From an uncultured Petrimonas sp. (GTDB lineage Bacteria; Bacteroidota; Bacteroidia; Bacteroidales; Dysgonomonadaceae), in NCBI GenBank assembly GCA_934621705.1, contig CAKTUP010000039.1, positions 1 through 15,659 of the forward strand: a stretch of 15,659 bases of DNA, given 5' to 3'. This document shows, piece by piece, positions 1-13,861 of the stretch. The position numbers were made by a program, and so were the translations under genes. The notes under the pieces are model-generated. The model was given only the letters and a program-made list of their open reading frames with translations, had not been told where the DNA came from and ran no database searches. Each line of letters opens with the position of its first letter. The stretch's first letter is position 1.

Positions 1-1088
1 GCATCGGCTGCCGGATCGGGGCGGTCTAATGCCAAATGGAAAGAAAAGTTAGGGAATTGACGCTCTAATTCGTAGAAGTCTTCCAGATAGAATGCCTCCA
101 TCAACGCGCGTGCACCGTAGAAGTACGACATTTTACGATCGGTGGTTTTCAGCGTTTTCGTCATATACATTATTTGAGCGCGCAACGGTGCCATACCGGC
201 TCCACCACCCACCCAGAGCATTTCGCGCTTGCTGTTTAAAATAGGGTGAAATTCGCCGTAAGGCCCGGACATGATTACTTTGTCGCCCGGATTCAGATTA
301 AAAATATAAGACGACACAATACCCGGTTTCACGTTCATCCACGTATTTTTCGCTCTATCGAACGGTGGAGTAGCTATACGAACGTTCAACTTAATAATAT
401 TATCGCCTTCGGCGGGATAATTTGCCATGGAGTAGGCGCGTACGGTATCTTCATCATTTTTCACCGATAAATCCCACAACTTAAACTTATTCCACTCAGG
501 CTTATACTGGTCTTCGATGGTGAAATCGGAGAATTTTAAATTGTATTTCGGAACTTTTATTTGGCTATAAGAACCCGGGATAAAATCAAGGTGTTCACCT
601 TCGGGCAAACGCACTACAAACTCTTTAATAAACGATGCCACATTGTGATTAGAAACAACTTCGCACTCCCATTCTTTGATGCCAAAGACTTCGTCGGGAA
701 TAACAACCGACAAATCCTCCTTTACCTTCACCTGACAACTCAATCGCCAGTGATTCATTTGCTCCTTACGGGTGAAATGGCCTACTTCGGTAGGAAGAAT
801 TTCTCCACCACCTTTCGTTACTTGGCAGCGACACTCCCCACAAGTTCCTCCGCCGCCACACGCCGATGATAGAAATATCTCATTAGCTTGTAGCGTGTTG
901 AGCAATGTAGATCCCTTGGAGACATCTAAATTCTTTTCCTCGTTAATTGTAATAGTTACGTTTCCGGCGGGCATCAATTTTGCTTTGGCAATCAAGATAA
1001 TCACCACCAAAATTAAGATTATCAATAAGAATGCCACCACGCTTGTTAAGATGGTTATTCCTCCTGAGCTCATTAACAACACATTCAT
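1..1088 (-). CDS. nqrF: Na+-translocating NADH:quinone reductase subunit F (3' end missing at left edge)
   Basis: NqrF is the NADH-oxidising subunit: it takes hydride from NADH onto FAD and passes single electrons through a 2Fe-2S cluster to the rest of the Nqr complex. The visible 362 residues read from an ATG at 1088 and run off the left edge without a stop. A single N-terminal membrane helix spans about residues 11-34. The 2Fe-2S ligands are C77, C83, C86 and C118 (spacing CX5CX2CX31C, as in Vibrio NqrF). The FAD motif RAYSMANYPAE is at 217-227, and the GGGAGMAP nucleotide-binding stretch at 294-301. The C-terminal CGPPMM-type NAD motif would lie outside the window. The gene follows nqrE after an unusually long 198-base spacer filled with 7-base repeats. 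There is an alternative ATG five codons in (1073); neither has a clear Shine-Dalgarno sequence. The assignment is very secure. Confidence 0.97.
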   Translation of the reverse strand, partial: MNVLLMSSGGITILTSVVAFLLIILILVVIILIAKAKLMPAGNVTITINEEKNLDVSKGSTLLNTLQANEIFLSSACGGGGTCGECRCQVTKGGGEILPTEVGHFTRKEQMNHWRLSCQVKVKEDLSVVIPDEVFGIKEWECEVVSNHNVASFIKEFVVRLPEGEHLDFIPGSYSQIKVPKYNLKFSDFTIEDQYKPEWNKFKLWDLSVKNDEDTVRAYSMANYPAEGDNIIKLNVRIATPPFDRAKNTWMNVKPGIVSSYIFNLNPGDKVIMSGPYGEFHPILNSKREMLWVGGGAGMAPLRAQIMYMTKTLKTTDRKMSYFYGARALMEAFYLEDFYELERQFPNFSFHLALDRPDPAAD

Positions 1089-1132: not shown

Positions 1133-1195
1133 GCGTTGGGTTTTGGGCATTGGGCGTTGGGCTTTGGGCACTGAGCACTGAGCATTGGGTGTTGT
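1133..1195. repeat. Nine degenerate 7-base tandem repeats, consensus GCNYTGG (nqrE-nqrF spacer, array 1)
   Basis: Read on the plus strand, 63 bases divide into nine consecutive 7-mers with no indel. Most begin GC and end TGG, with variation mainly in the middle bases. On the nqr transcript they read as CCARNGC. The array sits 44 bases upstream of the nqrF ATG and is not coding in any convincing way. Confidence 0.85.
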
Positions 1196-1219
1196 GGCTC
1201 TTCTTTCAACAAACTTTTC

Positions 1220-1282
1220 ACTCTTCATTTCATACTCTTTGCTCTTTGCTCTACGCTCTTTACTCAATGCTCTGCGCTCTTT
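1220..1282. repeat. Nine degenerate 7-base tandem repeats, consensus GCTCTTT (nqrE-nqrF spacer, array 2)
   Basis: A second 63-base block of nine indel-free 7-mers with a different consensus (AAAGAGC on the nqr transcript). It begins four bases after the nqrE stop codon. The second unit (ATTTCAT) is the most diverged. Bases 1196-1219 between the two arrays show no clear periodicity. Confidence 0.85.
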
Positions 1283-1286
1283 ACCA

Positions 1287-1901
1287 TTAAATATTGATCC
1301 CTGAAAAACTCATAAATCCGATAGCCATCAAAGCGGTAACAATAAAAGTAATACCAAGGCCTTTCAATGGTTTCGGAATGTGCGAATATTCCAGTTTCTC
1401 GCGAATGGCGGCTAAGCCCAAAATAGCCAGCAACCATCCGATACCGGAACCAAAACCATAAGCTGCAGCCATTCCCACATTGGCGTATTCGCGTTGTTGC
1501 ATAAACAGCGAGCCTCCAAGTATGGCACAGTTCACGGCAATTAACGGTAAAAAGATACCGAGCGAAGCATATAGCGATGGACTGAATTTTTCTACCACCA
1601 TCTCTACCAGTTGAACGAAAGATGCGATAACAGCAATAAAAATCAATAAACTGAAAACACTCAGGTCAACTGTTGCAAATTGCGGGCCTAACCAAGCAAG
1701 AGCGCCTGCTTTCAGCACGTAATTTTCGAGCATATAATTAATAGGTACGGTAAGCACGAGAACAAAAGTTACTGCTAATCCAAGTCCCAGGGCTGTTTTT
1801 ACGTTTTTAGAGACCGCAAGATAAGAGCACATACCTAAGAAGTACGCGAAAACCATGTTGTCTACAAATATTGATCGTACAATAAGACTAATAGCATCCA
1901 T
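1287..1901 (-). CDS. nqrE: Na+-translocating NADH:quinone reductase subunit E
   Basis: NqrE is one of two homologous six-helix membrane subunits (with NqrD) that hold an iron-sulfur centre inside the membrane and help form the Na+ path. The 204-residue protein has the family length and is almost entirely hydrophobic. C25 (in FLGMCSYLA) and C125 (in AVNCAILGG) sit in the two inverted-repeat halves at the places where NqrD/NqrE cysteines ligate the shared cluster. The C-terminal stretch REKLEYSHIPKPLKGLGI is typical of NqrE rather than RnfA. It lies 104 bases after nqrD, a long gap for this operon that carries 11-base degenerate repeats just upstream of the start codon. Confidence 0.97.
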   Translation of the reverse strand: MDAISLIVRSIFVDNMVFAYFLGMCSYLAVSKNVKTALGLGLAVTFVLVLTVPINYMLENYVLKAGALAWLGPQFATVDLSVFSLLIFIAVIASFVQLVEMVVEKFSPSLYASLGIFLPLIAVNCAILGGSLFMQQREYANVGMAAAYGFGSGIGWLLAILGLAAIREKLEYSHIPKPLKGLGITFIVTALMAIGFMSFSGINI

Positions 1902-1909
1902 ATAAATAA

Positions 1910-1952
1910 ATTGTTATTCTGTTGTTATTCAATTGTAATTGGAAGTAATTCA
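1910..1952. repeat. Degenerate 11-base repeats upstream of nqrE
   Basis: On the plus strand four near-copies of an RTTGTTATTCN unit follow one another (the third is 10 bases). The first two differ at only two positions; the last two are more diverged. The array starts eight bases from the nqrE start codon. The rest of the nqrD-nqrE spacer (1953-2005) shows nothing I can name. Confidence 0.5.
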
Positions 1953-2005
1953 GTTGTCTCGTCGATGTTTTTTCCAACACAACGAATTACGAGCGAAGCG
2001 CATTT

Positions 2006-2638
2006 TTAGTTCGTTTCCTCCTGCAATTCCTTATTCTTCCATCTGTGTATCCATATAATAACTCCCACAATGATTAGTGCCATGGGAGCGAGCATCATAA
2101 GGCCATTATTCTCATATCCCGCGTCGTAGAATGCTTGCGGTATCACTTTGTATCCGAGCAATTCACCGGATCCCAATAATTCGCGGAAAAATCCAACTAC
2201 TACCAATATCCATCCGTAACCCAATCCGTTGCCAACTCCATCCAGGAACGAAGGCCAAGGACCGTTGCCAAGGGCGAAAGCCTCGAGGCGTCCCATCAGA
2301 ATACAGTTTGTCACAATTAGTCCCACGAATACCGATAATTGTTTGTTTACATCGTAAGCAAAAGCTTTCAGCACTTCACTTACAATAGTTACCAGCGATG
2401 CAATAACTACTAATTGCACAATAATACGAATGCGGGTGGGGATGGTTTTTCGCAACAACGAAATGATTACATTAGCAAATGCCGTTACAATAACTACGGC
2501 AATAGCCATAACAATAGAAGGCTCCAGCTTGGATGTTACTGCTAGTGCAGAACAAATACCAAGCACTTGCACTAGGATAGGATTATTTTTGTTAAGCGGC
2601 CCTAAAAATGCCTGCTTTGTTTTTGCAGATAATGCCAT
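2006..2638 (-). CDS. nqrD: Na+-translocating NADH:quinone reductase subunit D
   Basis: NqrD is the partner of NqrE: a six-helix membrane subunit contributing two cysteines to the intramembrane iron-sulfur centre between NqrF and NqrC. The 210-residue length is normal. C29 (in VLGICSALAV) and C112 (in VTNCILMGRLEAFA) fall at exactly the numbers reported for Vibrio NqrD. The N-terminus (LSAKTKQAFLGPLNKNNPI) and the WIHRWKNKE tail are typical of NqrD. The gene starts 30 bases after nqrC, so the two are certainly cotranscribed. Confidence 0.97.
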   Translation of the reverse strand: MALSAKTKQAFLGPLNKNNPILVQVLGICSALAVTSKLEPSIVMAIAVVIVTAFANVIISLLRKTIPTRIRIIVQLVVIASLVTIVSEVLKAFAYDVNKQLSVFVGLIVTNCILMGRLEAFALGNGPWPSFLDGVGNGLGYGWILVVVGFFRELLGSGELLGYKVIPQAFYDAGYENNGLMMLAPMALIIVGVIIWIHRWKNKELQEETN

Positions 2639-2668
2639 ATTTATATTGTTTTATATTGAATGTCCGGT

Positions 2669-3364
2669 TTATTGTCCGGCATTTAATTCCAGTAAAAAAT
2701 TCTTGTATTTACCTACACTATTTATCAACATAGCGTCAACTCCTTTACTGGTGATTGTTCCACCTGAAATTCCGTCAACATAATCTCTTTGAGATACAGA
2801 CTGTCCGGGTTTTACTACAGCGATGGATTTGAACTCACCGTCTTTAATCAGTTCTTTTTCGTTGAATTGATTTCTGAAGGGGGAATATACGATTTCCGCT
2901 CCTAATCCCGGAGTTTCGCTCGCATGTCCGAACTCAGATCCGTAAATTGTGCTGCCATCACTTTCAACAGACAGATATCCCCATATCGGGCCCCATAATC
3001 CGGCACCGTGCATGGGAATAATATATTTTTTTGATCCGTCTACATCCGCCTCAAAAACAGGCAATTCCGAATCGCTTGCAGAAAATGCGGGGTCTGTGGC
3101 CTCAATCCCTTCCGAGCCTTCTACTTTAGTTCCTTCGGGAGTGATCAGATAGGCATTTTTGACAAGATCCCGATATATGTTTTCAGCTTCTGCAGTGGTA
3201 GCATCGATGCGTAAGGAGCGAAGTATCTGCTGCATTTTATCAACATTTGCATTGGTGATCTGTCTTTCATTTAAAACCTGATGGGTGAAAGCCAAGCCTA
3301 TGGCAACAATTATCACCATTACGGATGCATAAATTATAGTATAAGTACTGTTTTCTCTGTTCAT
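2669..3364 (-). CDS. nqrC: Na+-translocating NADH:quinone reductase subunit C (covalent-FMN subunit)
   Basis: NqrC carries a covalently bound FMN on the outer face of the membrane and relays electrons from the NqrD/E cluster to NqrB. The 231-residue protein has one N-terminal membrane helix (about residues 9-28) followed by an FMN-binding domain. The flavinylation motif is DGISGGT at 197-203, so T203 is the expected FMN-phosphoester residue. Vibrio NqrC has SGAT, so the small residue before the threonine is Gly here rather than Ala. The GAGLWGPIWGYL and ETPGLGAEI stretches are conserved in the family. Attachment of FMN needs the flavin transferase ApbE, which is not in the window. It starts 13 bases after nqrB. 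Confidence 0.97.
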   Translation of the reverse strand: MNRENSTYTIIYASVMVIIVAIGLAFTHQVLNERQITNANVDKMQQILRSLRIDATTAEAENIYRDLVKNAYLITPEGTKVEGSEGIEATDPAFSASDSELPVFEADVDGSKKYIIPMHGAGLWGPIWGYLSVESDGSTIYGSEFGHASETPGLGAEIVYSPFRNQFNEKELIKDGEFKSIAVVKPGQSVSQRDYVDGISGGTITSKGVDAMLINSVGKYKNFLLELNAGQ

Positions 3365-3377
3365 AGTTGTATCCTTT

Positions 3378-4592
3378 CTATTTTACCGCTTTTGCATGTG
3401 CAGTTCGTTTTAAACGACGCTTGATGTTTGCATCTATCACATAGAAATCGATAAGCGGGGCAAACGCGTTCATAAACAATATGGAGAGCATCATTCCTTC
3501 GGGATATCCCGGGTTGAAAACACGAATTAAGATGGCGATCATTCCGATGAGGAAACCAAATATCCATTTTCCTTTTTCCGTTCTTGCCGAGGTTACGGGG
3601 TCGGTGGCCATAAACACCGCACCAAACGCGAATCCCCCAAGCAGGAAGTGATATTGCGGGGGCATGCCCATTACGGCATTTTTGGCAAGCAAGTTCAGAA
3701 GAACGATGGTGAACAATCCGCCCAAAAATACCGAAACCATGGTTTTCCAGCTTCCCACGTTGGTAATTATCAGTAGGATAGCACCCAGTAATATGGCCAG
3801 CGTTGAAACTTCACCAATGGATCCCGGAATTAATCCGATAAACATATCCCACAATTTCAGAGGCTGACCGGTAATTCCATGGAAAGCAAAGTCTCCAAAT
3901 GCAGAGGCATCGGTTACGGCAAGTTGACCTAACGGTGTGGCACCTGAATAGCTGTCGACTAAAGTTCCGCCACCAACGCCAAATGTATCGGTGGTACGAA
4001 CCCAAACCTGGTCGCCCGACATTTTAGACGGATAGGCGAAGAATAAAAACGCGCGCGCCATTAATGCCACGTTAAATATATTGTATCCGGTTCCACCGAA
4101 TATTTCTTTTATGAAAATTACGGCAAATGCTGTTGCCACGGCAATCATCCACAGCGGAGTGTCAATAGGCATGATCATGGGAATAAGCAATCCTGATACT
4201 AAAAAGCCTTCGGCAACCTCTTCTTTTTTCATTTGCGCCATGGCGAACTCAATGCCCAGTCCTATCGCGTACGAAACAACTATCTGCGGCAGTGTAGCCA
4301 AAAAACCATAAAGGAAGGTTTCCATAAAACCAACCTGAGCGTTAACGGCTAAGTAGTGCTGATAACCCACGTTGTACATTCCCATCAGCAATGCCGGAAT
4401 AAGCGCAATTATAACAATGACCATCGTTCGTTTCGAGTCTCTGGCATCGTGGATATGAACTCCCGACTTCGATGTCGTATTCGGTACGTAGAGAAAGGTT
4501 TCAATAGCATCGTATGTGGAATAGAGCCAATGAAACTTACCCCCTTCTTCGAAATTGGGCTTTATTTTATCGAGAAATTTTCTTAACGACAT
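3378..4592 (-). CDS. nqrB: Na+-translocating NADH:quinone reductase subunit B (covalent-FMN and riboflavin membrane subunit)
   Basis: NqrB is the largest membrane subunit; it carries covalent FMN and riboflavin and is the likely site of the Na+ translocation step and of quinone reduction together with NqrA. The 404-residue protein is close to the family length. Multiple transmembrane helices cover about residues 57-380. The covalent-FMN motif DSYSGAT lies at 213-219, making T219 the modified residue. Other conserved stretches are FGGTGYNIFNVALMARAF at 165-182 and FMATDPVTSARTEKGKWIFG at 327-346. The gene follows nqrA after 97 bases that contain two short 7-base repeat arrays, whereas nqrC follows after only 13 bases. 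Confidence 0.97.
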   Translation of the reverse strand: MSLRKFLDKIKPNFEEGGKFHWLYSTYDAIETFLYVPNTTSKSGVHIHDARDSKRTMVIVIIALIPALLMGMYNVGYQHYLAVNAQVGFMETFLYGFLATLPQIVVSYAIGLGIEFAMAQMKKEEVAEGFLVSGLLIPMIMPIDTPLWMIAVATAFAVIFIKEIFGGTGYNIFNVALMARAFLFFAYPSKMSGDQVWVRTTDTFGVGGGTLVDSYSGATPLGQLAVTDASAFGDFAFHGITGQPLKLWDMFIGLIPGSIGEVSTLAILLGAILLIITNVGSWKTMVSVFLGGLFTIVLLNLLAKNAVMGMPPQYHFLLGGFAFGAVFMATDPVTSARTEKGKWIFGFLIGMIAILIRVFNPGYPEGMMLSILFMNAFAPLIDFYVIDANIKRRLKRTAHAKAVK

Positions 4593-4618
4593 TATATATT
4601 TTTGTTTGATGTTTATTG

Positions 4619-4646
4619 TTTAAAGTTCAAGGTTTAAAGTTCAGAA
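4619..4646. repeat. Four 7-base repeats upstream of nqrB (TTTAAAG / TTCARRR)
   Basis: A 14-base composite (TTTAAAG followed by TTCAAGG) occurs twice in a row, the second copy ending TTCAGAA. It lies in the nqrA-nqrB spacer 26 bases before the nqrB ATG. It follows the same 7-base spacing as the adjacent GYAACCC array but has an unrelated sequence. Confidence 0.65.
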
Positions 4647-4658
4647 TTACATCATCTT

Positions 4659-4686
4659 GCAACCCGTAACTCGTAACCCGCAACCC
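4659..4686. repeat. Four 7-base repeats just after the nqrA stop (GYAACYC)
   Basis: Four consecutive 7-mers fit GYAACYC on the plus strand (GGGTTRC on the transcript, with one variant). The first and last units are identical. The array begins three bases downstream of the nqrA stop codon. Confidence 0.8.
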
Positions 4687-4689
4687 GAA

Positions 4690-6036
4690 TTATTCCATTT
4701 CCTTCTTGAGCATATCCAATCCGGTGCGAACTATCCGCTGAATTTCCAGTTTCGACGTATCCACGAATTCGCAAAGCGCGAAATCTTCGGGCGCCACTTC
4801 GTAAATGCCCAGTTGCTCCATCTTATCGATGTTGAACGCGATAATGGATTTGATCAACTGTTCGGGGAAAATGTCCATGGGGAATACTTTGTCGTATTCG
4901 TTGGAAACGATAATTGCCCTTGGGCCGCCCAGCACGCGCGCATCAAGGCGATAAGCCTTTTTAAGTTGCAGGTAGGTGGCTCCGGCGCTGTATCGGTTGG
5001 GCGAAAGGGATGCCCAGCCAAAGGCTTCGTGAACATCGTCGCCTTCGGGGATTACGGTAACCTGCGAATGTGTGGCGCGAAGTACGCCGTTGGCATCCAC
5101 TTTTGTTCCCGTGAGCACGTTTCCGCTGATGTAGCGTTTGTTGCCTTTTTCGGTAACGTTGCCGGTGAAGAGTTTGGTTAGTTCTGTGCCTACAAGCATT
5201 TTGTAGTATCCGGTTTGTTTTACTTCCGAACCGGTGAGCGCAACGGTACGTGTCAGATCAGCGAAGCCTTTGTTGAAAAGTCTTCCGATAAACAAAACGT
5301 CCAGCGCATTCAGCGTCCAAACCGTTTCACCGCGGTTCACCGGAGCCAGGTGATTGATTTGCACACCCACGTTTCCGGCCGGATGCGGTCCCGAGAATTC
5401 GGTAATGGTCACGTTTTTGGCGTTTCTCAACCCTTCGTTTTTGGTGTCGGGACTGATGGAAAGATATACTTTTCCGGCGGTGAGTTTGGCTAAGGCGTTA
5501 AATCCGGCTTGCAGGTCGGTTTCCTGTCCTTTCAGTATGAAGTCGTACGACGGAGCCAGCGGTGCGGAATCGAATCCGGTAACGAAAATGTCGCGCGGTT
5601 CTTTTTCGGGGCTGGCCACCACATCGTAGGGACGTTGTTTGATGACGAACCAAATGCCGGCTTCCAATAACGCTTTTTTGATCTCTTCGGGAGACATCGC
5701 GGCGACGTCTTTTTTCCCGTAGTCAACATACGCGTTTTCTTTGTCGGCTTTGATGGTAATGTTCAGGATGCGTCTTTTTTCTCCCCTGTTGATGGCCGTA
5801 ATGGTTCCGCTCACGGGCGATGCGAACATCATATCGGGATACATTTTTGAGAAAAACAGCGCTTGTCCGGCTTTCACGGTATCATCCACCTTCACGTTGA
5901 GTTTGGGCGTGATTCCCTGAAAATCTTCCGGGCATACCTGCAAGTATTCGCTTGTTATTTCGCCACGAAAAACTTCTTCGGGTTTTCCTAACAAGGGAAT
6001 CTGCAAGCCTTTCTTGATTTTAATTCGATTAGCCAT
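4690..6036 (-). CDS. nqrA: Na+-translocating NADH:quinone reductase subunit A
   Basis: NqrA is the membrane-associated cytoplasmic subunit without redox cofactors of its own; it contacts NqrB and contributes to quinone binding. The 448 residues match the family length. The N-terminal IKIKKGLQIPLLGKP stretch is diagnostic. It is followed by a lipoyl-like barrel fold (about 40-100) containing PKLNVKVDDTVKAGQALFFSK, split here by family convention as PKLNVKVDDTVKAGQ and ALFFSK, and FASPVSGTITAI. NQRA-type sequences continue with GNVGVQINHLAPVN at about 220-235. It is first in the operon, preceded by a leader of about 100 bases and a good -7 box. NqrA has no counterpart in Rnf, so its presence settles the complex as Nqr. 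Confidence 0.97.
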   Translation of the reverse strand: MANRIKIKKGLQIPLLGKPEEVFRGEITSEYLQVCPEDFQGITPKLNVKVDDTVKAGQALFFSKMYPDMMFASPVSGTITAINRGEKRRILNITIKADKENAYVDYGKKDVAAMSPEEIKKALLEAGIWFVIKQRPYDVVASPEKEPRDIFVTGFDSAPLAPSYDFILKGQETDLQAGFNALAKLTAGKVYLSISPDTKNEGLRNAKNVTITEFSGPHPAGNVGVQINHLAPVNRGETVWTLNALDVLFIGRLFNKGFADLTRTVALTGSEVKQTGYYKMLVGTELTKLFTGNVTEKGNKRYISGNVLTGTKVDANGVLRATHSQVTVIPEGDDVHEAFGWASLSPNRYSAGATYLQLKKAYRLDARVLGGPRAIIVSNEYDKVFPMDIFPEQLIKSIIAFNIDKMEQLGIYEVAPEDFALCEFVDTSKLEIQRIVRTGLDMLKKEME

Positions 6037-6052
6037 ATTTTATTGATAAAAT
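6037..6052 (-). other. AT-rich inverted repeat immediately upstream of the nqrA start codon
   Basis: A 7-bp inverted repeat (ATTTTAT / ATAAAAT, two-base centre) abuts the nqrA ATG. It occupies the place of the ribosome-binding site. The spacing is too short for a stable RNA hairpin with all pairs, so it may be an operator-like DNA palindrome or chance in AT-rich sequence. Confidence 0.3.
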
Positions 6053-6094
6053 AACTGTTGGTTCTTTCGGGATAAATGACTATTAATCAGAGTT

Positions 6095-6123
6095 CTATTT
6101 GATAAAGCTGTGAAGACAAATAG
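6095..6123 (-). other. Inverted repeat in the nqrA leader (CTATTTG / CAAATAG)
   Basis: Two perfect 7-base arms separated by 15 bases lie between the inferred nqrA transcription start (near 6137) and the start codon. They could form a leader hairpin in the nqr mRNA or a binding site. The sequence is AT-rich, so chance is possible. Confidence 0.3.
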
Positions 6124-6143
6124 TGATTTTCCTATTTAAGACG

Positions 6144-6176
6144 CAAAGATAAGAGATTTAATTTCAAAAAAAGAAA
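6144..6176 (-). promoter_or_regulatory. Putative Bacteroidota-type promoter of nqrABCDEF
   Basis: On the minus strand TATCTTTG (6144-6151) matches the Bacteroidota -7 consensus TAnnTTTG perfectly. A T-rich segment 21 bases upstream (TTTC at 6173-6176) could act as a weak -33 element; a better-matching TTTG at 6165-6168 is too close. Transcription would start near 6137, giving a leader of roughly 100 bases. Confidence 0.6.
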
Positions 6177-6181
6177 GAATA

Positions 6182-6325
6182 ATGAAAAAAATCTTTATTG
6201 GGATAGAATGTCTGTTATTATTTCTTCCTATATATTACGCGCACAAGATAGTAATGTTTTGCAGGAATAATAAAAATTACGATCTGCATGTAATGAAATC
6301 GGCACAACTTACGTCTTATTTATAA
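6182..6325 (+). other. Possible 47-codon ORF or gene remnant in the nqrA-tldD divergent region
   Basis: An ATG at 6182 opens a 47-codon frame ending TAA at 6325. The product starts MKKIFIGIECLLLFLPIYYA, which has the charge-then-hydrophobic shape of a signal peptide or small membrane protein, then becomes polar with no recognisable domain. An AAAGAAAG stretch precedes the ATG. The region is AT-rich and short, so the frame may be chance or the decayed start of a secreted-protein gene. I do not recognise a homologue. Confidence 0.18.
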
Positions 6326-6334
6326 ATTATTGCG

Positions 6335-6342
6335 TACTTTTA
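6335..6342 (+). promoter_or_regulatory. Possible -7 box for tldDE
   Basis: TACTTTTA matches seven of the eight positions-by-class of TAnnTTTG (final G replaced by A). No TTTG is seen at the expected -33 distance. A start near 6349 would give a leader of about 160 bases, in which only a small AGCGG/CCGCT hairpin (6434-6450) and the 7-base repeats are visible. Confidence 0.35.
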
Positions 6343-6461
6343 CAGTTTAATTAACAGACTTCAGATAACAAATATCAGACCCTGTTCGCGCATAGATGTT
6401 TTCTATCGCCTTGCGCATACAATCAATCGGGAAAGCGGATTCTAACCGCTGTCCGGTTCCG

Positions 6462-6504
6462 TCTGACATCTGACAGCGAAGCGATCTGAAATCTCAAATC
6501 TAAA
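6462..6504. repeat. 7-base repeats in the tldD leader (TCTGACA x2, ATCTNAA x3)
   Basis: TCTGACA occurs twice in tandem at 6462-6475. After eight bases, three 7-mers fitting ATCTNAA follow at 6484-6504. The last unit ends six bases before the tldD ATG, where an A-rich run takes the place of a Shine-Dalgarno sequence. Confidence 0.7.
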
Positions 6505-6510
6505 AAAAAT

Positions 6511-8031
6511 ATGGACAGACGAAATTTTATCAAAACAGGCAGTCTCGCTCTTGCGGGAGCTGTGGCTGCACCGACGTTCGCTTCATCGTTGACCGGAAAT
6601 GAGAAAACCACCTCAGTTTCATCGGCTATGCAGCATTTCGGCGTAAGCGAAGCTGATGTCCGCAAGACGTTGACGGCGGCGCTGGAAAAAGGCGGCGATT
6701 ATGCCGATTTATTCTTCGAACACACGTTTAGCAACAGCGTTGCCTTGCAGGACGGCGCGGTGAACCGCAGCAATTCCAATATCGATTTTGGGATGGGTGT
6801 GCGTGTACTCTCGGGCGACCAAACCGGGTATGCGTATATCGAGAACATCACGCTCGATGAAATGCTGAAAGCGGCGCGTACGGCTGCGCGTATTGCCAGC
6901 GGCAGCGCTAAAACCAAACCGATTTCGCTGACCGAAAAACCGGTGAACACCAATTTCTACACCGTTTCCACCCCTTGGGAAGGAGTTATCCTGAAAGAAA
7001 AGACGCCGTATCTGCAAAAACTGAACGACAAGGTGTTCTCTCTCGACAAGCGGGTGCAGAAAGTATCGGCGTCGTTGAACGACAGCACCTCGCACGTCCT
7101 GTTTTGCAACTCCGAAGGAGTGAGTTATTACGATTACCGCCCCATGGTTACGCTGAGCGCGGTGTGTATTATGGAAGAAAACGGCAAATTCGAGAACAGC
7201 TACTCGGCGCGGGCTTACCGCAAAGGGTTCGAGTTTTTGTCGGACGACATTATCGAAATCATCGCCCGCGAAGCGGTAGAAAACACGTCCATCTTGTTCA
7301 AAGCCATCAAGCCCAAAGGTGGAGAAATGCCTGTGGTGATGGGTTCGGGCGGATCGGGGATTTTGCTGCACGAAGCTATCGGGCACGCTTTCGAAGCCGA
7401 TTTTAACCGCAAAAACATTTCCATCTTCTCCGACCAACTGAACAAGAAAATCTGCAACGAGCACATCAGCGTGGTGGATGACGGAACCATTCCGTTTAAC
7501 CGCGGCTCGATAAACATCGACGACGAAGGCACGTACGGCCAGAAAACACACATTGTGAAAGACGGCGTGCTTACCAGTTACCTGCACGACCGCATCAGTG
7601 CGAAGCACTACGGCATCGAATCCACCGGAAACGGCCGCCGCGAATCGTTCCGCAGTATGCCCATGCCGCGCATGCGTGCCACGTATATGGAAGCGGGAAA
7701 CGTGAAGGAGTCGGACATCATCGCTTCCGTTAAGAACGGAATTTTTGTGGATAAGTTTACCAACGGACAAGTACAGATTGGCGCGGGCGACTTCACGTTC
7801 TTCGTGAAATCGGGTTACCTTATCGAAAACGGACAGTTGACGCAACCCATCAAAGACATCAACATCATCGGAAACGGCCCGAAGGCGTTAGCCGATATTA
7901 CCATGGTTGCCGACAACGACAAAATTGACAACGGCACGTGGACATGCGGAAAAGACGGGCAGTCGTGCCCCGTTACCTGCGGTATGCCTTCGGCACTGGT
8001 GAGTAAATTAACCGTGGGAGGGGAAAGTTGA
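6511..8031 (+). CDS. tldD: TldD-family zinc metalloprotease with Tat signal peptide
   Basis: TldD is the catalytic subunit of the TldD/TldE protease, known in E. coli for microcin B17 maturation and CcdA degradation as a cytosolic heterodimer; the substrate here is unknown. The 506-residue protein starts with DRRNFIKTG followed by an Ala-rich hydrophobic stretch and PTFASS, a convincing twin-arginine signal (residues 2-26) and the reason to accept the ATG at 6511. The zinc-site motif HEAIGH is at 287-292, within LLHEAIGHAFEAD. The conserved CGKDGQ segment starts at C479, the likely third zinc ligand, and the protein ends near the family LTVGG motif. The next gene is its usual partner, so the two form an operon. 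E. coli TldD lacks a signal peptide; export is therefore the point of difference here. Confidence 0.95.
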   Translation: MDRRNFIKTGSLALAGAVAAPTFASSLTGNEKTTSVSSAMQHFGVSEADVRKTLTAALEKGGDYADLFFEHTFSNSVALQDGAVNRSNSNIDFGMGVRVLSGDQTGYAYIENITLDEMLKAARTAARIASGSAKTKPISLTEKPVNTNFYTVSTPWEGVILKEKTPYLQKLNDKVFSLDKRVQKVSASLNDSTSHVLFCNSEGVSYYDYRPMVTLSAVCIMEENGKFENSYSARAYRKGFEFLSDDIIEIIAREAVENTSILFKAIKPKGGEMPVVMGSGGSGILLHEAIGHAFEADFNRKNISIFSDQLNKKICNEHISVVDDGTIPFNRGSINIDDEGTYGQKTHIVKDGVLTSYLHDRISAKHYGIESTGNGRRESFRSMPMPRMRATYMEAGNVKESDIIASVKNGIFVDKFTNGQVQIGAGDFTFFVKSGYLIENGQLTQPIKDINIIGNGPKALADITMVADNDKIDNGTWTCGKDGQSCPVTCGMPSALVSKLTVGGES

Positions 8032-8071
8032 GACTTGGCGACTTGGCGACAAGAGACCAGGCGAAAAGGCG
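8032..8071. repeat. Degenerate 8-base repeats directly after the tldD stop
   Basis: GACTTGGC occurs twice in perfect tandem starting one base after the tldD TGA. Three looser octamers (one GACAAGAG, then two ending AGGCG) follow. The remaining spacer to 8120 has no clear structure. Confidence 0.55.
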
Positions 8072-8120
8072 GTCATTTGATAAGCCGCTGCCTTTTAAAT
8101 CGAAGTTCGCTCCCTCTCTC

Positions 8121-8148
8121 AAAACTCATAACTCACAACTCAAAACTA
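8121..8148. repeat. Four 7-base repeats upstream of tldE (ANAACTC)
   Basis: Four consecutive 7-mers fit ANAACTC; only the second base varies, except that the last unit ends in A. The array ends six bases before the tldE ATG, the same distance as the ATCTNAA array to the tldD ATG. Confidence 0.8.
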
Positions 8149-8154
8149 TTTAAC

Positions 8155-9474
8155 ATGATATCAAACCAAAATAAAAAACTGGCACAATGGGCAATGGATT
8201 ACGCCCTGAAAAACGGTTGCCAGGCAGCAAAAGTATCCATAAATCAAGGTTCGAACACGTCGTTTGAACTGCGCGATGCCAAAATGGATAAACTGCAACA
8301 GGCATCGGAAAGCGGCATGGGCTTGTTCCTTTACGTGGACGGACGTTACGGAACATACTCCACCAACCGGCTCAACCAAAAGGAATTGGAGTCGTTCATC
8401 AAAAACGGTATAGAATCTACCCGATATCTCGCCAAAGACGAAGCGCGCGTTCTACCCGACGCTTCGCGCTACTACAAAGGCGGCAAACCCGATCTGCAAC
8501 TGTTGGATCCGAAATTCTCCGCCGTAAATCCCGACGATAAGGTGGCTATGGCAAAAACCATTGCCGAAGAAGCATTGGGCAAAGACCCGCGGATAATCTC
8601 CGTGGAATCGTCGTACGGCGACGGCGATAACTTTGGTTATCAGATCACCAGCAACGGTTTTGAGGGCGAAACCCGGCGGTCGTGGTACTCGCTGTCGGCC
8701 AGCGTTGCCGTAAAGGGTGACGGCGAAGCCCGTCCTTCGTCCTATTGGTACGAATCGTCGCTCTATCTCGATAAACTGATCAGAGAAGGCATCGGGCAAA
8801 AGGCATTGGAGCGCACGTTGCAGAAAATAGGACAGCAGAAAACCAAATCGGGCAAATACACCATGGTGGTTGATCCGTTGAACTCGGGACAACTGCTTCG
8901 CCCGATGCTGAGCGCGATTTTCGGCGCTGCCTTGCAGCAGAAAAACTCTTTCCTGTTGGATAAACTCGGACAAAAAGTGGGCAGCGACAAGTTCACGTTG
9001 CTGGACGAGCCGCATCTTATCGGTGCGTCGGGCGCGCGCTATTTCGATGGCGAAGGCGTGGCAACGGAGCGAAGAAGCATCTTCGACAAAGGGGTATTGA
9101 ACACCTATTATATAGATACGTACAACGCCAGGAAAATGAATGTGGAGCCCACCATCGCCAATCCATCGGTTTTGGTGATGCAAACCGGAAGCAAAGACCT
9201 GAACGGCTTGGTTGCCGGCGTAAGTCACGGTATCCTCGTTACCGGTTTCAACGGCGGAAACAGCAACAGCAGCACCGGCGATTTTTCCTACGGAATTGAA
9301 GGCTTCCTGATCGAAAACGGCCGCCTTACCACGCCGCTTTCCGAAATGAACGTTACCGGAAACATGATTACACTCTGGAACTCGCTCGCCGAAACCGGAA
9401 ACGACCCGCGGTTGAATTCTTCGTGGCGCATTCCGTCGCTCGTTTTCGAAGGCGTGGATTTTAGCGGGATTTAG
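8155..9474 (+). CDS. tldE: TldE/PmbA-family partner subunit
   Basis: TldE (PmbA) is the non-catalytic homologue that forms the protease with TldD. The 439-residue product has no HExxxH motif, as expected. Family-typical C-terminal features are GVATERRSIFDKGVLNTYYI (about 304-323), a Gly/Asn/Ser-rich loop GGNSNSSTGDFSYGIEGFLI and NVTGNMITLWNSL. The frame stays open 40 codons further upstream to 8035, but that stretch is repeat-filled spacer and translates to low-complexity sequence, so I place the start at the ATG at 8155, where the protein begins MISNQNKKLAQWAMDYALKN. There is no signal peptide, unlike its partner TldD. The first palindromic repeat downstream begins at the last base of the stop codon. 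Confidence 0.93.
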   Translation: MISNQNKKLAQWAMDYALKNGCQAAKVSINQGSNTSFELRDAKMDKLQQASESGMGLFLYVDGRYGTYSTNRLNQKELESFIKNGIESTRYLAKDEARVLPDASRYYKGGKPDLQLLDPKFSAVNPDDKVAMAKTIAEEALGKDPRIISVESSYGDGDNFGYQITSNGFEGETRRSWYSLSASVAVKGDGEARPSSYWYESSLYLDKLIREGIGQKALERTLQKIGQQKTKSGKYTMVVDPLNSGQLLRPMLSAIFGAALQQKNSFLLDKLGQKVGSDKFTLLDEPHLIGASGARYFDGEGVATERRSIFDKGVLNTYYIDTYNARKMNVEPTIANPSVLVMQTGSKDLNGLVAGVSHGILVTGFNGGNSNSSTGDFSYGIEGFLIENGRLTTPLSEMNVTGNMITLWNSLAETGNDPRLNSSWRIPSLVFEGVDFSGI

Positions 9475-9561
9475 TAGAGACGCATTGAATGCGTCTTTAA
9501 TGGGCAGAGACGCATTGAATGCGTTTTATGATGGGTAGAGACACATTCAATGTGTCTCTAC
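9475..9561. repeat. Three copies of a palindromic repeat, core AGACGCATTGAATGCGTCT
   Basis: Copies lie at about 9475-9499, 9505-9529 and 9535-9561. Each is an inverted repeat around a single central base. Copy 1 has perfect 9-base arms in its core; copy 2 is eroded on its right arm; copy 3 has perfect 13-base arms. In copy 3 a G:C pair of the stem is replaced by A:T on both arms, a compensatory change. A fourth relative lies at 12103-12126 beyond the PBP gene. These look like REP-type elements. Confidence 0.85.
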
Positions 9562-9568
9562 ATTTTTT
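9535..9568 (+). terminator. Likely intrinsic terminator of tldDE (third palindrome copy plus T-run)
   Basis: The perfect palindrome at 9535-9561 can fold into a stem of about 12 bp with a 3-base loop, and is followed on the plus strand by A and six T. It comes 60 bases after the tldE stop. Confidence 0.65.
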
Positions 9569-9604
9569 CACACCATTTCTACCCGCTTATTCAACTGTTT
9601 TGTG

Positions 9605-9612
9605 TAATTTTG
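9605..9612 (+). promoter_or_regulatory. Putative -7 box for the PBP gene
   Basis: TAATTTTG matches the TAnnTTTG consensus exactly. No TTTG is seen at the expected -33 spacing. The start would be near 9619, leaving a leader of about 40 bases before the ATG at 9658. Confidence 0.5.
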
Positions 9613-9657
9613 TGCCGAAATCCGTCCAAATCAAAACTAATCGGTTTCAAGTAAACT

Positions 9658-12048
9658 ATGGGGAAAAAATCGGAACCAACTAAGAAAACAACTAAGAAAA
9701 CGCCGCCCAGAAGCAATATCGTCAAATGGTTATGGCGATTGTTCTTTATTTTTGTTGCTGTAAACGTCGTTGCATTCCTGCTGATGTCGTCCGGACTGAT
9801 CGGTTATCTGCCGCGCATCGATGAACTGGAAAATCCGATCGATAAATACGCATCGCAAGTTATTTCATCAGACGAACAGTTGTTGTTTACCTATTCTCAA
9901 AGCGACGAAAACCGTATTTTCGTTGACTATAACGAACTGTCGCCTCATCTCATCAGCGCGCTGGTTGCAACGGAAGACCAACGTTACTATACCCATTCGG
10001 GAATTGATATTATCGGCCTGGGAAGAGCTGTTTTTAAAACCCTTCTGCTTCAGGACGAAAGCAGCGGAGGAGGAAGTACCATTACCCAGCAATTGGCAAA
10101 ACTGCTCTATTCCCCCAAAGCCAGCAATAAGCTTCAGCGTGTTTTTCAGAAACCCATCGAGTGGGTGATTGCCACCAAGTTGGAGCGTTTTTACACCAAA
10201 GACGAGATTATCAACCTCTACCTCAATAAATACGATTTCAACTACAATGCCGTAGGAATTGAATCGGCAGCCCGCACCTATTTCAATAAGCGCCCCATCG
10301 ATTTGAATATTCAGGAGTCGGCCACGCTGGTGGGGATGTTAAAGAATTCATCGCTGTATAACCCCGTTCGGCGGGAGCAAGTGACTAAAGACCGTCGCGA
10401 TGTGGTGTTGGCGCAAATGAGAAAAGCCGGCCATTTATCGTTGCACGAAGCCGATTCGCTGCAAAAACTTCCTATCGAGTTGGATTTTAACCGTGCAGAC
10501 CACATTGCTATTCCGGCGCCGTATTACCGCCAGCACCTGGCAAAGGTGATGATGGCTGTGAAACCCGACAGAAAAGCCTATGCATCGTGGCAGGGACAGC
10601 AGTTTTACGAAGATTCGCTATCGTGGGAAACCGATCCGCTATACGGCTGGTGCAACAAAAACAAGAAAGCCGACGGCTCTAACTACAATGTTTATACCGA
10701 CGGATTGAAAATTTATTCCACCCTCGATTCGCGCATGCAGAAATATGCCGAGCAAGCCGTTCAGGAACATCTGAGCAAGGCTTTGCAGCCGCAGTTTACA
10801 GCCGAGAAACGCAACAAGAAATACGCTCCGTACGCGAACAGTTTGGCCGGCGATGCCGAAAAATTTATGCAAACGGCCATGCGCCAAACCGACCGGTACC
10901 GGATTCTGAAGAAAGAAGGCTGGAGCGAAGACAAGATACTGAGCAACTTTAAAGATACTCCGGTGGAGATGAAGGTCTTCTCGTGGAAAGGCGATATTGA
11001 TACTACGCTGACTCCCTGGGACTCGATCCGCTACCACAAAACCTACCTGCGCGCCGGATTTATGGCGATGAGCCCGTTGACGGGACACGTGAAAGCCTAC
11101 GTGGGCGGCCCCGATTTCGCGCATTTCAAGTACGATATGGTAAGCACCGGAAAGCGACAAATCGGGTCAACCATAAAACCGTATCTCTACACATTGGCCA
11201 TGGAAGAAGGGTTGACGCCTTGCGACGGAATGATGCATCGACCTATAACCATCATGGCCGAAAACGGACAACCGTGGACACCCCGAAACACAAGAGGCGC
11301 CTTGGGCGGTTTTGTTTCCATAAAATGGGGGTTGCAGAATTCCGATAACTGGGTTACGGCTTACCTGATGAGCCTGTTCTCGCCTTACGCATTTGCGCGG
11401 ATGCTGAAATCCTTCGGCTTGAAATCGCCCGCCGACCCGGTGGTTTCTCTGGCGTTGGGACCAAACGATGCTTCGGTTTACGAGATGGCCGGCGCGTACA
11501 CGGCATTCGTCAATCGGGGAATTCGTGTGGAACCGCTGCTGGTTACCCGGATTGAAGATTCTTTCGGCAACGTGGTGGCTAACTTTGTGCCCCGGATGCA
11601 GGAGATTTTCAGCGAAACCACATCGTATAAAATGCTGGATATGCTGAAAGCTGTGGTGGACGGCGGAACCGGTGGCCGCTTGCGCCGCATCTACAACCTG
11701 AAAAGCGAAATGGGCGCCAAAACCGGTACCACCAACGATAACTCCGACGCGTGGTTTATGTCGTTTACGCCCGAAATTGTGGCTTCGGCATGGGTGGGTG
11801 GCGAGGAACCTTCCATCCGATTCGATAATATGGCGTACGGACAGGGCGCTGCCGCGGCGCTGCCCATTCACGGGTTATTTTACCAACGCATCTACGCCGA
11901 TCCGACGCTGGATTACAAAGACGACGGAAAATTCGATATCCCCGCCAATTTCACGCCTTGCCACGATTCACAACGCTACTCGCCCGACTTTTACCGCAAC
12001 GATGACCCCATAGGCGAAGGCGAAGGAATTGATGATATGTTTAATTAG
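9658..12048 (+). CDS. Class A penicillin-binding protein (PBP1A-like, glycosyltransferase plus transpeptidase)
   Basis: This bifunctional enzyme polymerises lipid II into glycan strands and cross-links the stem peptides in the periplasm, anchored by one N-terminal helix. The 796 residues begin with a basic Lys/Thr-rich cytoplasmic tail (1-20) and a helix at about 24-50. The GT51 domain covers about 65-240, with catalytic E106 in ATEDQRYYTHSGID and the GGSTITQQLAK motif at 138-148. The transpeptidase domain covers about 460-735 with SxxK at 504-507 (nucleophile S504 in GSTIKP), SDN at 562-564 and KTGT at 688-691. A charged insert of about 90 residues (370-460) separates the domains, and the tail (735-796) is acidic. 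All active-site residues are intact. It has its own -7 box and is isolated from tldDE by a terminator-like palindrome. Whether it is MrcA or MrcB in E. coli terms cannot be decided. Confidence 0.95.
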   Translation: MGKKSEPTKKTTKKTPPRSNIVKWLWRLFFIFVAVNVVAFLLMSSGLIGYLPRIDELENPIDKYASQVISSDEQLLFTYSQSDENRIFVDYNELSPHLISALVATEDQRYYTHSGIDIIGLGRAVFKTLLLQDESSGGGSTITQQLAKLLYSPKASNKLQRVFQKPIEWVIATKLERFYTKDEIINLYLNKYDFNYNAVGIESAARTYFNKRPIDLNIQESATLVGMLKNSSLYNPVRREQVTKDRRDVVLAQMRKAGHLSLHEADSLQKLPIELDFNRADHIAIPAPYYRQHLAKVMMAVKPDRKAYASWQGQQFYEDSLSWETDPLYGWCNKNKKADGSNYNVYTDGLKIYSTLDSRMQKYAEQAVQEHLSKALQPQFTAEKRNKKYAPYANSLAGDAEKFMQTAMRQTDRYRILKKEGWSEDKILSNFKDTPVEMKVFSWKGDIDTTLTPWDSIRYHKTYLRAGFMAMSPLTGHVKAYVGGPDFAHFKYDMVSTGKRQIGSTIKPYLYTLAMEEGLTPCDGMMHRPITIMAENGQPWTPRNTRGALGGFVSIKWGLQNSDNWVTAYLMSLFSPYAFARMLKSFGLKSPADPVVSLALGPNDASVYEMAGAYTAFVNRGIRVEPLLVTRIEDSFGNVVANFVPRMQEIFSETTSYKMLDMLKAVVDGGTGGRLRRIYNLKSEMGAKTGTTNDNSDAWFMSFTPEIVASAWVGGEEPSIRFDNMAYGQGAAAALPIHGLFYQRIYADPTLDYKDDGKFDIPANFTPCHDSQRYSPDFYRNDDPIGEGEGIDDMFN

Positions 12049-12052
12049 GGAA

Positions 12053-12087
12053 GGGCGAAGGGCATAGAGCGAAGGGCATAGGGTGAA
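12053..12087. repeat. Five 7-base repeats just after the PBP stop (GGGCRWA)
   Basis: Five consecutive indel-free 7-mers, with GGGCATA occurring twice and close variants between. The array starts four bases after the stop codon. Confidence 0.8.
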
Positions 12088-12102: not shown

Positions 12103-12126
12103 GTAGAGACGCAATGCTTGCGTCTT
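12103..12126. repeat. Fourth copy of the GTAGAGACGC palindrome family
   Basis: The sequence GTAGAGACGCAATGCTTGCG followed by TCTT has arms GACGCAA and TTGCGTC around a TGC loop. The outer GTAGAGACGCA matches the copies at 9475-9561, while the stem-loop junction differs on both arms so that pairing is kept. No T-run follows, so it is unlikely to be a terminator by itself. Confidence 0.75.
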
Positions 12127-12150
12127 CCATCCGGAAAAACAATACAAATG

Positions 12151-12190
12151 AAAAGGTACTGACGTTTCACCCAAAACGTCAGTACCTTTT
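12151..12190. terminator. 17-bp hairpin, probable bidirectional terminator between convergent genes
   Basis: Arm AAAAGGTACTGACGTTT (12151-12167) is the perfect reverse complement of 12174-12190, with loop CACCCA. The stem begins with AAAA and ends with TTTT, so both strands present a stem ending in a short U-run. Its position between the plus-strand PBP gene and the minus-strand TPR gene suits a shared terminator. The right arm is also the first unit of the 22-base repeat. Confidence 0.65.
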
Positions 12191-12261
12191 GGGTGAAACG
12201 TCAGTAGGTTTTGGGTAAAACGTCAGCAGGTTTTCATCGAAACCTCAGCAGGTTTTGCAAC
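12174..12261. repeat. Four tandem 22-base repeats (AAACGTCAGYAGGTTTT plus five variable bases)
   Basis: Units begin at 12174, 12196, 12218 and 12240, each exactly 22 bases. The first 17 bases are well conserved (CC for GG in unit 1; CCTC for CGTC in unit 4). The last five vary: GGGTG, GGGTA, CATCG, GCAAC. A partial inverted copy precedes them and forms the hairpin at 12151-12190. Confidence 0.85.
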
Positions 12262-13580: not shown

Positions 13581-13679
13581 TGATAGGAGTTTAAATAAAT
13601 CATTAGGCATCGGCCGGTTTGGAAGCGAGAGTTGTTTTTTAATGAATATCCGTTACTTTATCCATATTACTTTTGTTAC

Positions 13680-13829
13680 GGTACGCTGTACCTTTTATAG
13701 TCTGTTGTTATCCGTAACTACAAAGATTTCGCTACTCTGTAGCAGTTAGTGTGGTCATTGATAGGTGCAGCGCACCTCAAATATTTGTAGCAAGGGTAAT
13801 ATATTGAGCAGCATAAGGTGCAGCGCACC
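13680..13829. repeat. Cluster of four short hairpins resembling a REP/BIME element
   Basis: Four imperfectly related hairpins, each 5-6 bp of stem with a 3-base loop: GGTACGCTGTACC (13680-13692), GCTACTCTGTAGC (13731-13743), AGGTGCAGCGCACCT (13763-13777) and GGTGCAGCGCACC (13817-13829). The second is preceded by CTACAAAGATTTC and the third is followed by CAAATATTTGTAG, near reverse complements, so hairpins 2 and 3 form a head-to-head inverted pair. The first hairpin is also enclosed on its left by GTTACGG (13675-13681), whose complement CCGTAAC is at 13712-13718. The cluster fills most of the 13581-13902 intergenic region; no gene is visible there. Confidence 0.7.
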
Positions 13830-13861
13830 GAAATATGAGATGCGGAAAACTTTTATTTCTA

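Follow-up and report, generated by a model that had tools for sequence, protein, structure and literature searches.

The 15,659-nt stretch of DNA considered here (the window; GenBank CAKTUP010000039.1, from an uncultured Petrimonas species) raises the question of why tandem arrays of 7-base units that differ in sequence recur at the boundaries of its genes. A first-pass annotation had listed eight such arrays, proposed that their period rather than their sequence is maintained, and named slippage-driven growth, repeat-templated insertion and selection for unstructured mRNA spacers as possible causes. We conclude, with a probability of roughly 0.7, that the arrays are heptanucleotide microsatellites produced by slippage-like local duplication, which lie between genes, drift in sequence, and come and go between species. 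Most likely, they are fast-changing copying-error tracts rather than a dedicated system.

Period 7 in the window and its relatives

Each array was evaluated by lag-7 identity within its coordinates, with p values drawn from 2000 dinucleotide shuffles of its own spacer (Table 1). All eight arrays exist, and 7 is the best lag in every one of them (lags 4–12 were computed, or 4–7 only for 6462–6475). Seven exceed the shuffles of their own spacer (p 0.0005–0.007), and 6462–6475 is borderline (p 0.05). The window as a whole holds four period-7 segments with a score of at least 10, compared with a mean of 0.04 and a maximum of 2 in 300 shuffles. The array at 12053–12087 is not one of these four; it and 1220–1282 are loose at period 7, score higher at periods 14 and 21, respectively, and are higher-order repeats of heptamers. 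As annotated, five arrays stop 3 to 6 bases from a start or stop codon.

We then counted periodic segments in related genomes. Degenerate arrays were detected by an ungapped score with a threshold of 10 or 11 depending on the analysis, and counts vary with this threshold. The window and 50 loci (844 kb in total) together yielded 38 intergenic and 2 coding period-7 segments and none in shuffled sequence (one shuffle per locus), the runner-up being period 8 with 10 intergenic segments; period 14 (22 segments) was taken as a harmonic. The sampled 920 kb of G035, a relative with a 4.41-Mb single-contig genome, gave 62 intergenic period-7 segments, 1 coding and 0 in shuffled spacers, compared with 13, 3 and 1 for period 8. 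Period 10 was found 7 times between genes in the same sample and the harmonic 14 was found 45 times, with every other period from 4 to 15 at 3 or fewer. Intergenic segments of period 7 versus period 8 numbered 24 versus 10 in G065, 20 versus 1 in G008, and 5 versus 2 in G003, where the stretches were partly selected through array matches. The 260 kb sampled from G006 (Petrimonas sp. IBARAKI) and G013 held no intergenic period-7 segment.

For a single motif tested across 198 genomes of the phylum, four ACTC copies were present at a spacing of 7 bases in 79 genomes, of 8 bases in 21 and of 6 bases in 6. The recurring feature is therefore the period and not the sequence, as had been proposed, and array density varies between lineages. 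The predicted excess of period 7 over shuffled spacers is likewise present in the sampled stretches of relatives. The arrays behave as heptamer simple repeats, in that tandem arrays exceed chance and 7 nt is the leading unit length (G018, considered below, is a partial exception). They are also scarce in coding sequence, as is expected of units that are not a multiple of three: arrays survive almost only between genes, probably because copy changes break reading frames. Arrays of period 8 and of other periods are also present, and one gene-end array in the window that is not a heptamer, 2.4 copies of the period-8 repeat GACTTGGC, lies right after the tldD stop codon (8032–8050).

Table 1. Heptamer arrays of the window and the genes that frame them. 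Identity is the lag-7 count; distance is to the nearest start or stop codon.
Feature	Coordinates	Strand	Position and units	Identity, p	Distance and remarks
Array	1133–1195	-	upstream of nqrF; sense units CCCAATG/CCCAACG/CAGTGCT	42/56, 0.0005	44 nt
Array	1220–1282	-	past nqrE stop; sense units AAAGAGC/GCAGAGC	33/56, 0.0005	4 nt; period-21 substructure (Tandem Repeats Finder)
Short array	4619–4646	-	upstream of nqrB; sense GAACTTTAAACCTTGAACTTTAAA	14/21, 0.005	26 nt
Array	4659–4686	-	past nqrA stop; sense units GGGTTRC	17/21, 0.0005	3 nt
Array	6462–6475	+	upstream of tldD; TCTGACA x2, perfect	7/7, 0.05	35 nt; borderline
Array	6484–6504	+	ahead of tldD start codon; ATCTNAA	12/14, 0.0065	6 nt
Array	8121–8148	+	ahead of pmbA start codon (8155); AACTCAN	17/21, 0.0005	6 nt
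Array	12053–12087	+	past PBP stop; GGGCGAA/GGGCATA	17/28, 0.007	4 nt; period-14 substructure
nqrF	3–1088	-	start end at 1088
nqrA–nqrE	1287–6036	-	frame the first four arrays		Pfam for nqrE, nqrB and nqrA only
tldD, pmbA and PBP1-type genes	6511–12048	+	frame the other arrays		Pfam PmbA_TldD domains, Transgly, Transpeptidase

Probable local duplication, drift and turnover

Units resemble their neighbors most. Identity falls from 0.861 at lag 1 to 0.615 at lag 14, and in arrays with at least eight units (n = 12), lag-1 identity exceeds lag-5 identity in 9 (p 0.03). Adjacent units differ by 279 transitions and 149 transversions, a ratio of 1.87 versus 0.37 for random bases. Together with the differences between orthologous spacers described below, this decay with distance and excess of transitions point to local duplication followed by point mutation.

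The window has an nqrE–nqrF spacer of 198 nt, compared with 33 nt for L001 and 36 nt for L003. Among the distinct spacers listed from relatives, 40 of 41 are 61 nt or shorter, and the remaining one (L046, 145 nt) also carries heptamers. The 33 nt of L001 match the leader adjoining the nqrF start codon of the window, and 1133–1195 falls within the DNA missing from L001. Therefore, the arrays are most simply read as extra DNA after the nqrE stop codon, and the change was probably a gain in the window. The L001 spacer matching 4659–4686 holds two GAGTTA-type copies with the same purine/pyrimidine pattern, as judged by eye.

Heptamers of other sequence follow the PBP stop codon in relatives, with GAYAAAA units in L113 (lag-7 identity 32/39, score 21) and GAGTAAA-type units in L051 (23/31). 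The score of the latter, 7, is under the threshold used elsewhere, as is that of the corresponding window array at period 7. Lag-7 agreement in purine/pyrimidine class at this site is 25/29 in the window, 37/39 in L113 and 27/31 in L051; L053 has a weak trace (5/10), and no array was seen by eye in L052, L054, L058 or L119. These data provide modest evidence that, at one gene-end site, related species carry heptamer arrays that differ in their bases.

Closer relatives differ in array length and presence. Between L013 and L014, whose nqrA genes are 95% identical, one array spacer measures 80 versus 73 nt, a difference of exactly one heptamer, a second measures 168 versus 141 nt (27 nt), and the third carries an array in L014 but not in L013. 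The L013–L078 and L028–L079 pairs yielded no array-bearing spacer pairs. An array is present in 9 of 39 orthologous spacers of G035 and G008 (in both for 3, in G035 only for 2, and in G008 only for 4) and in 4 of 18 orthologous spacers of G035 and G065 (in both for 1), and synteny from the PBP locus gave only 3 spacers for G065 and G008. Some of the G035/G008 differences are composed of several short-repeat families, and one composite piece of 131 nt is in G008 and missing in G035.

Such a composite piece might suggest that the arrays are arms of hairpins or mobile mosaic elements, akin to bacterial interspersed mosaic elements (BIMEs) or repetitive extragenic palindromic (REP) sequences, inserted as blocks between genes. 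Some spacers, including nqrE–nqrF of the window and nqrD–nqrE of L013, do combine a post-stop array with a pre-start array that by eye is roughly its reverse complement, and inverted pairs of GGGAATC arrays are reported by Rehm 2015 (PMC4692102). The hairpins formed by such pairs looked convincing by eye. However, a permutation test over 35 G035 spacers gave a complementarity of 9.94 between the two halves of a spacer versus 11.56 between different spacers (p 0.99), where the within-spacer score is lowered because many of these spacers hold a single array. Nor is the order of units common to different spacers in G035 or G008, which led us to reject copies of longer dispersed blocks as a source of the arrays; G065 shows a slight excess of shared order (35.2 versus 33.1; 12 permutations per genome). 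We consider insertion of such elements very unlikely.

Addition of heptamers at gene ends by a dedicated enzyme acting in some lineages, through repeat-templated synthesis, would fit the absence of intergenic period-7 arrays from G006 and G013 compared with the 62 of G035, as well as the narrow unit vocabularies described below. The decay of identity with lag and the transition bias nevertheless match duplication plus point mutation, and mutS1, sbcD and DinB-type genes fail to separate genomes sampled as array-rich from those sampled as array-free, although no systematic candidate-gene search was made. In the ten genomes searched, mutS1 was over the cut-off in nine, including array-rich G008, G035, G065 and G018 and array-free G006 and G013, and loss of mismatch repair was rejected as an explanation; the exception, G023, has an assembly broken into at least 375 contigs. 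A match to sbcD was over the cut-off in one genome (G003), a DinB-type gene was found in nine (not G018), and neither tracks array density, which was not sampled in G001, G014, G015, G023 and G068. A dedicated enzyme seems to us highly improbable.

We favor slippage-driven growth among the three causes first put forward. A short intergenic stretch would undergo local duplication, preferentially in steps of 7 bases, through replication slippage or an equivalent error, after which its units would mutate, mainly by transitions, and neighboring units would be re-copied. The array would thereby retain its period, and approximately its purine/pyrimidine pattern, despite the drift of its bases, could grow up to the edges of coding sequences, and would be gained or lost between species. 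The generating error is probably slippage of a polymerase, and individual arrays probably lack a dedicated function.

Position, strand and possible functions

The expected preference of array ends for gene boundaries is borne out in sampled stretches of the four array-rich genomes (G035, G018, G065 and G008), where 51.7% of 87 arrays are no more than 15 nt away from a gene end, compared with 29.7% for uniform placement (co-directional spacers of at least 60 nt; maximum of 2000 simulations, 48.3%). Among spacers of at least 80 nt in these genomes, arrays occur in 84 of 498 between co-directional genes and in 8 of 164 others (p 4e-5). This co-directional enrichment was not reproduced in two further samples. 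The first comprised 20 regions picked for an ACTC array in 18 diverse genomes (of the 19 with listed places, among the 79 with a match) and had arrays in 15/127 co-directional, 11/33 convergent and 2/41 divergent spacers. The second comprised 48 of the first 50 loci, with L013 and L014 excluded because they belong to G065 and G008, and had arrays in 13/338, 5/41 and 2/49, respectively. Pooled, arrays are scarce between divergent genes (11/196 versus 141/1335, p 0.03), and without the selected regions the figures are 9/155 versus 115/1175 (p 0.14); this scarcity is a trend that holds in some samples only. For ACTC arrays outside called open reading frames, counted over the 20 regions plus 12 additional stretches from those genomes, a stop codon is the nearest gene end in 25 of 31, two further arrays inside called frames having been dropped.

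Strand composition depends on the gene end in some samples. In the four array-rich genomes, the sense-strand purine fraction is 0.603 near stops (n = 38) and 0.398 near starts (n = 53), with a p value of 8e-8 that overstates independence because array families recur among these related genomes; their 345 non-array spacers lack this polarity (0.517 versus 0.511). The window arrays have purine fractions of 0.78, 0.57 and 0.80 after stop codons and 0.48, 0.43, 0.43, 0.52 and 0.54 before start codons. Of the 26 ACTC/GAGT arrays no farther than 60 nt from a gene end, 21 read GAGT in sense after a stop or ACTC in sense before a start (binomial p 0.0025, Fisher p 0.047; 13 of 15 genomes), as do 24 of 31 at any distance (Fisher p 0.11). 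Purine polarity was not significant in the 20 diverse regions (0.579 versus 0.538, p 0.60) or in the 48 loci (0.547 versus 0.429, p 0.14; 14 of 24 arrays as predicted, p 0.54).

Edge preference, together with the polarity and co-directional enrichment of the array-rich genomes, is what would be expected if the arrays were transcriptional or post-transcriptional control elements under selection at gene ends, with a protein reading one unit per heptamer. Such a role is unlikely, as the arrays offer no common sequence to a binder, orthologous spacers of the same operon lack arrays, and neither polarity nor co-directional enrichment extends to the 48 loci or the 20 regions. RNA folding of array spacers is also ordinary (mean z -1.42 for 35 array spacers versus -1.64 for 60 non-array spacers), a result that also gives no support to the suggested selection for unstructured mRNA spacers. 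Loading of the termination factor Rho, which follows a YC rule (a pyrimidine preceding C), onto transcripts entering a gene was another candidate role that we set aside. YC occurs in 59% of 91 units versus 48% after letter shuffling, with C at 0.138 and G at 0.095, and C is missing from TAATTGG, the commonest G035 family read toward a start.

Arrays might also serve as all-frame stop cassettes between cistrons, since any stop triplet within a 7-base unit comes round in each of the three frames. Sense stops in all three frames are indeed found in 61% of arrays near stops (n = 38) and 64% near starts (n = 53), versus 25% and 26% in shuffles. Counted by family, however, a sense stop is present in only 10/14 (near stops) and 9/16 (near starts), with 6/14 and 11/16 for the antisense strand, and the count is inflated because stop-free arrays ahead of start codons can be absorbed into called genes. 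We rejected this candidate, as its excess is not robust to family and is biased by gene calls, and regard it as scarcely probable at all.

Several observations weigh against microsatellites growing by slippage. On contig C7 of G018 (L112 and L165–L181), an array-rich stretch, intergenic segments of period 8 are as frequent as those of period 7 (16 versus 17), and 7 is therefore not universal; this contig could reveal whether the step is set per lineage. Only 1 of ten indels aligned in G035/G008 array spacers is 7 nt long, and the clean one-heptamer difference noted above is the single such case, with most array spacers differing by larger, sometimes composite, pieces. The loci of one Flavobacterium psychrophilum isolate, to which we return below, were unchanged over 12 passages (PMC4501049). 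Unit vocabularies are also narrow: the 52 arrays of G035 form 13 consensus clusters, the largest of 17, versus 30.6 and 5.8 in random draws, and the 20 arrays of G065 form 8 clusters versus 15.6. Slippage from random seeds predicts neither these vocabularies nor the strand polarity at gene ends, which is an unexplained trend present in some samples only. The annotated difference in consensus from array to array holds for the window, but units are drawn from a narrower set than chance in the two genomes tested. Slippage-like duplication, as we favor it, accounts for neither the step of 7, the narrow vocabularies, the differences in density between relatives, nor the strand trend. A bolder reading invokes, in Bacteroidota, a lineage-specific activity with an intrinsic 7-base step that writes and rewrites gene-end arrays from a vocabulary particular to each genome, the gene end determining strand polarity; a site would then retain its period and purine/pyrimidine pattern even as its bases change. 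We regard this reading as a long shot. Overall, the interpretation offered by the annotation, in which units were given on the + strand, is partly supported.

In phase-variation contingency loci, repeat copy number switches expression of the adjacent gene; the genes neighboring the arrays here look like housekeeping genes. The gene order of the window is nqrF to nqrA (- strand), tldD, pmbA and PBP1-type (+ strand), and then TPR and TonB genes (- strand). The names nqrC, nqrD and nqrF, which we take from operon order, belong to genes with syntenic tblastn matches in relatives. The closest NqrA and PBP matches are from Petrimonas/Proteiniphilum-type Bacteroidota, at 90% identity at best for both proteins. 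Note that genes were called with a simple codon-model script that places some starts wrongly, as for pmbA in the window, where the array at 8121–8148 was scored as coding because the start was put at 8035 and not 8155. Heptamer arrays can thus mislead start-codon annotation, and they are usable as strain markers.

Other repeats were also observed. Nearly three tandem copies of a 31-bp unit with the palindrome GACGCATTGAATGCGTC follow pmbA (9474–9557), a related copy of this unit follows the PBP gene (approximately 12103–12127), and L051 has the palindrome GTAGAGACGGTGTGTACGCCGTCTCTAC downstream of pmbA. About four copies of the 22-bp repeat AAAACGTCAGCAGGTTTTGGGT lie between the convergent PBP and TPR genes (12173–12257), and the TPR–TonB spacer (13675–13850) contains, by eye, the small palindromes GGTGCAGCGCACC (twice) and GGTACGCTGTACC. 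In G035 (L106–L111 and L125–L164), TAATGTGCCAAT, GATTTAACGATT and AGAAGTCAAGAA recur in 4, 5 and 4 of 311 co-directional spacers, whereas no 12-mer exceeded 3 spacers in a single shuffle.

Comparison with known repeat systems

Cyanobacterial short tandemly repeated repetitive sequences have a fixed consensus repeated over the genome, unlike the 13 clusters among 52 arrays in G035 and the differing units across the window. Unlike BIME/REP-like elements, the arrays show no pairing of inverted arms within a spacer above the level between spacers (35 G035 spacers). The GGGAATC or GGGGA(C/T)T arrays of Xanthomonas and Nostoc form G-quadruplexes from nearly one consensus per genome, with the G-rich strand sense after stops and antisense before starts (Rehm 2015, PMC4692102). 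A comparable polarity is seen here in the four pooled genomes and is not significant in the 20 regions or 48 loci. A G-tract is not found in the units of every array: most families in relatives lack GGG, which on one strand is in most units of 3 of the 8 window arrays (1133–1195, 4659–4686 and 12053–12087). The TAACTGA arrays of Beggiatoaceae (MacGregor 2015, PMC4679880), for which S1, Csp or Csr-type binders were proposed, resemble ours in having 7-nt units just ahead of start codons, and differ in their one fixed consensus; consensuses here are many, and the window units are not TAACTGA.

That study also reports that spacers of Gramella, Aequorivita and Elizabethkingia contain direct repeats of other heptamers, and that close relatives without the heptamers have shorter spacers. 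Of twelve F. psychrophilum variable-number tandem repeats (Apablaza 2015, PMC4501049, Table 3), eight have 7-base units, no two of them alike. Isolates differ in copy number at eight of the twelve loci, four with 7-nt units, and the sole repeat that is only intragenic has a 9-nt unit. The likeness lies in varied 7-nt units in the same phylum, 7 of the 8 being purely intergenic. Multi-consensus 7-base arrays in Bacteroidota are therefore already in print, as typing markers, and the annotation's view that they are uncharacterized in this phylum was too strong. The excerpted text of that paper takes up neither the period of 7 nor the position at gene ends, and in the open-access literature we found no paper that treats these arrays as a class. 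What is new here is the phylum-wide test of period against sequence and the one gene-end site with heptamer arrays of differing consensus in related species. Genomes such as G035, with many arrays of varied sequence and with array-poor or array-free relatives, allow effects of sequence to be separated from effects of period.

A 7-base excess in bacteria has been on record since 2007. Mrazek, Guo and Shah (2007, as cited in PMC4679880 and PMC4692102) found that, among long simple repeats, those with 7-nt units are the most numerous in most genomes, and proposed slippage, with 7 nt as the stretch contacting the polymerase, a hypothesis for which the excerpts of the two citing papers hold no test. 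Should 7 prove to be the step of a replication error, unit length could be linked to a polymerase; otherwise, something else counts to seven. As cited, those 5–11-nt repeats are most frequent in genomes of Burkholderia, cyanobacteria, actinobacteria and Xanthomonas (the top ten), and units that are a multiple of three are the likeliest inside genes. Our arrays resemble them in being tandem, phylogenetically scattered and most commonly of 7 nt, and differ in that many are short and degenerate.

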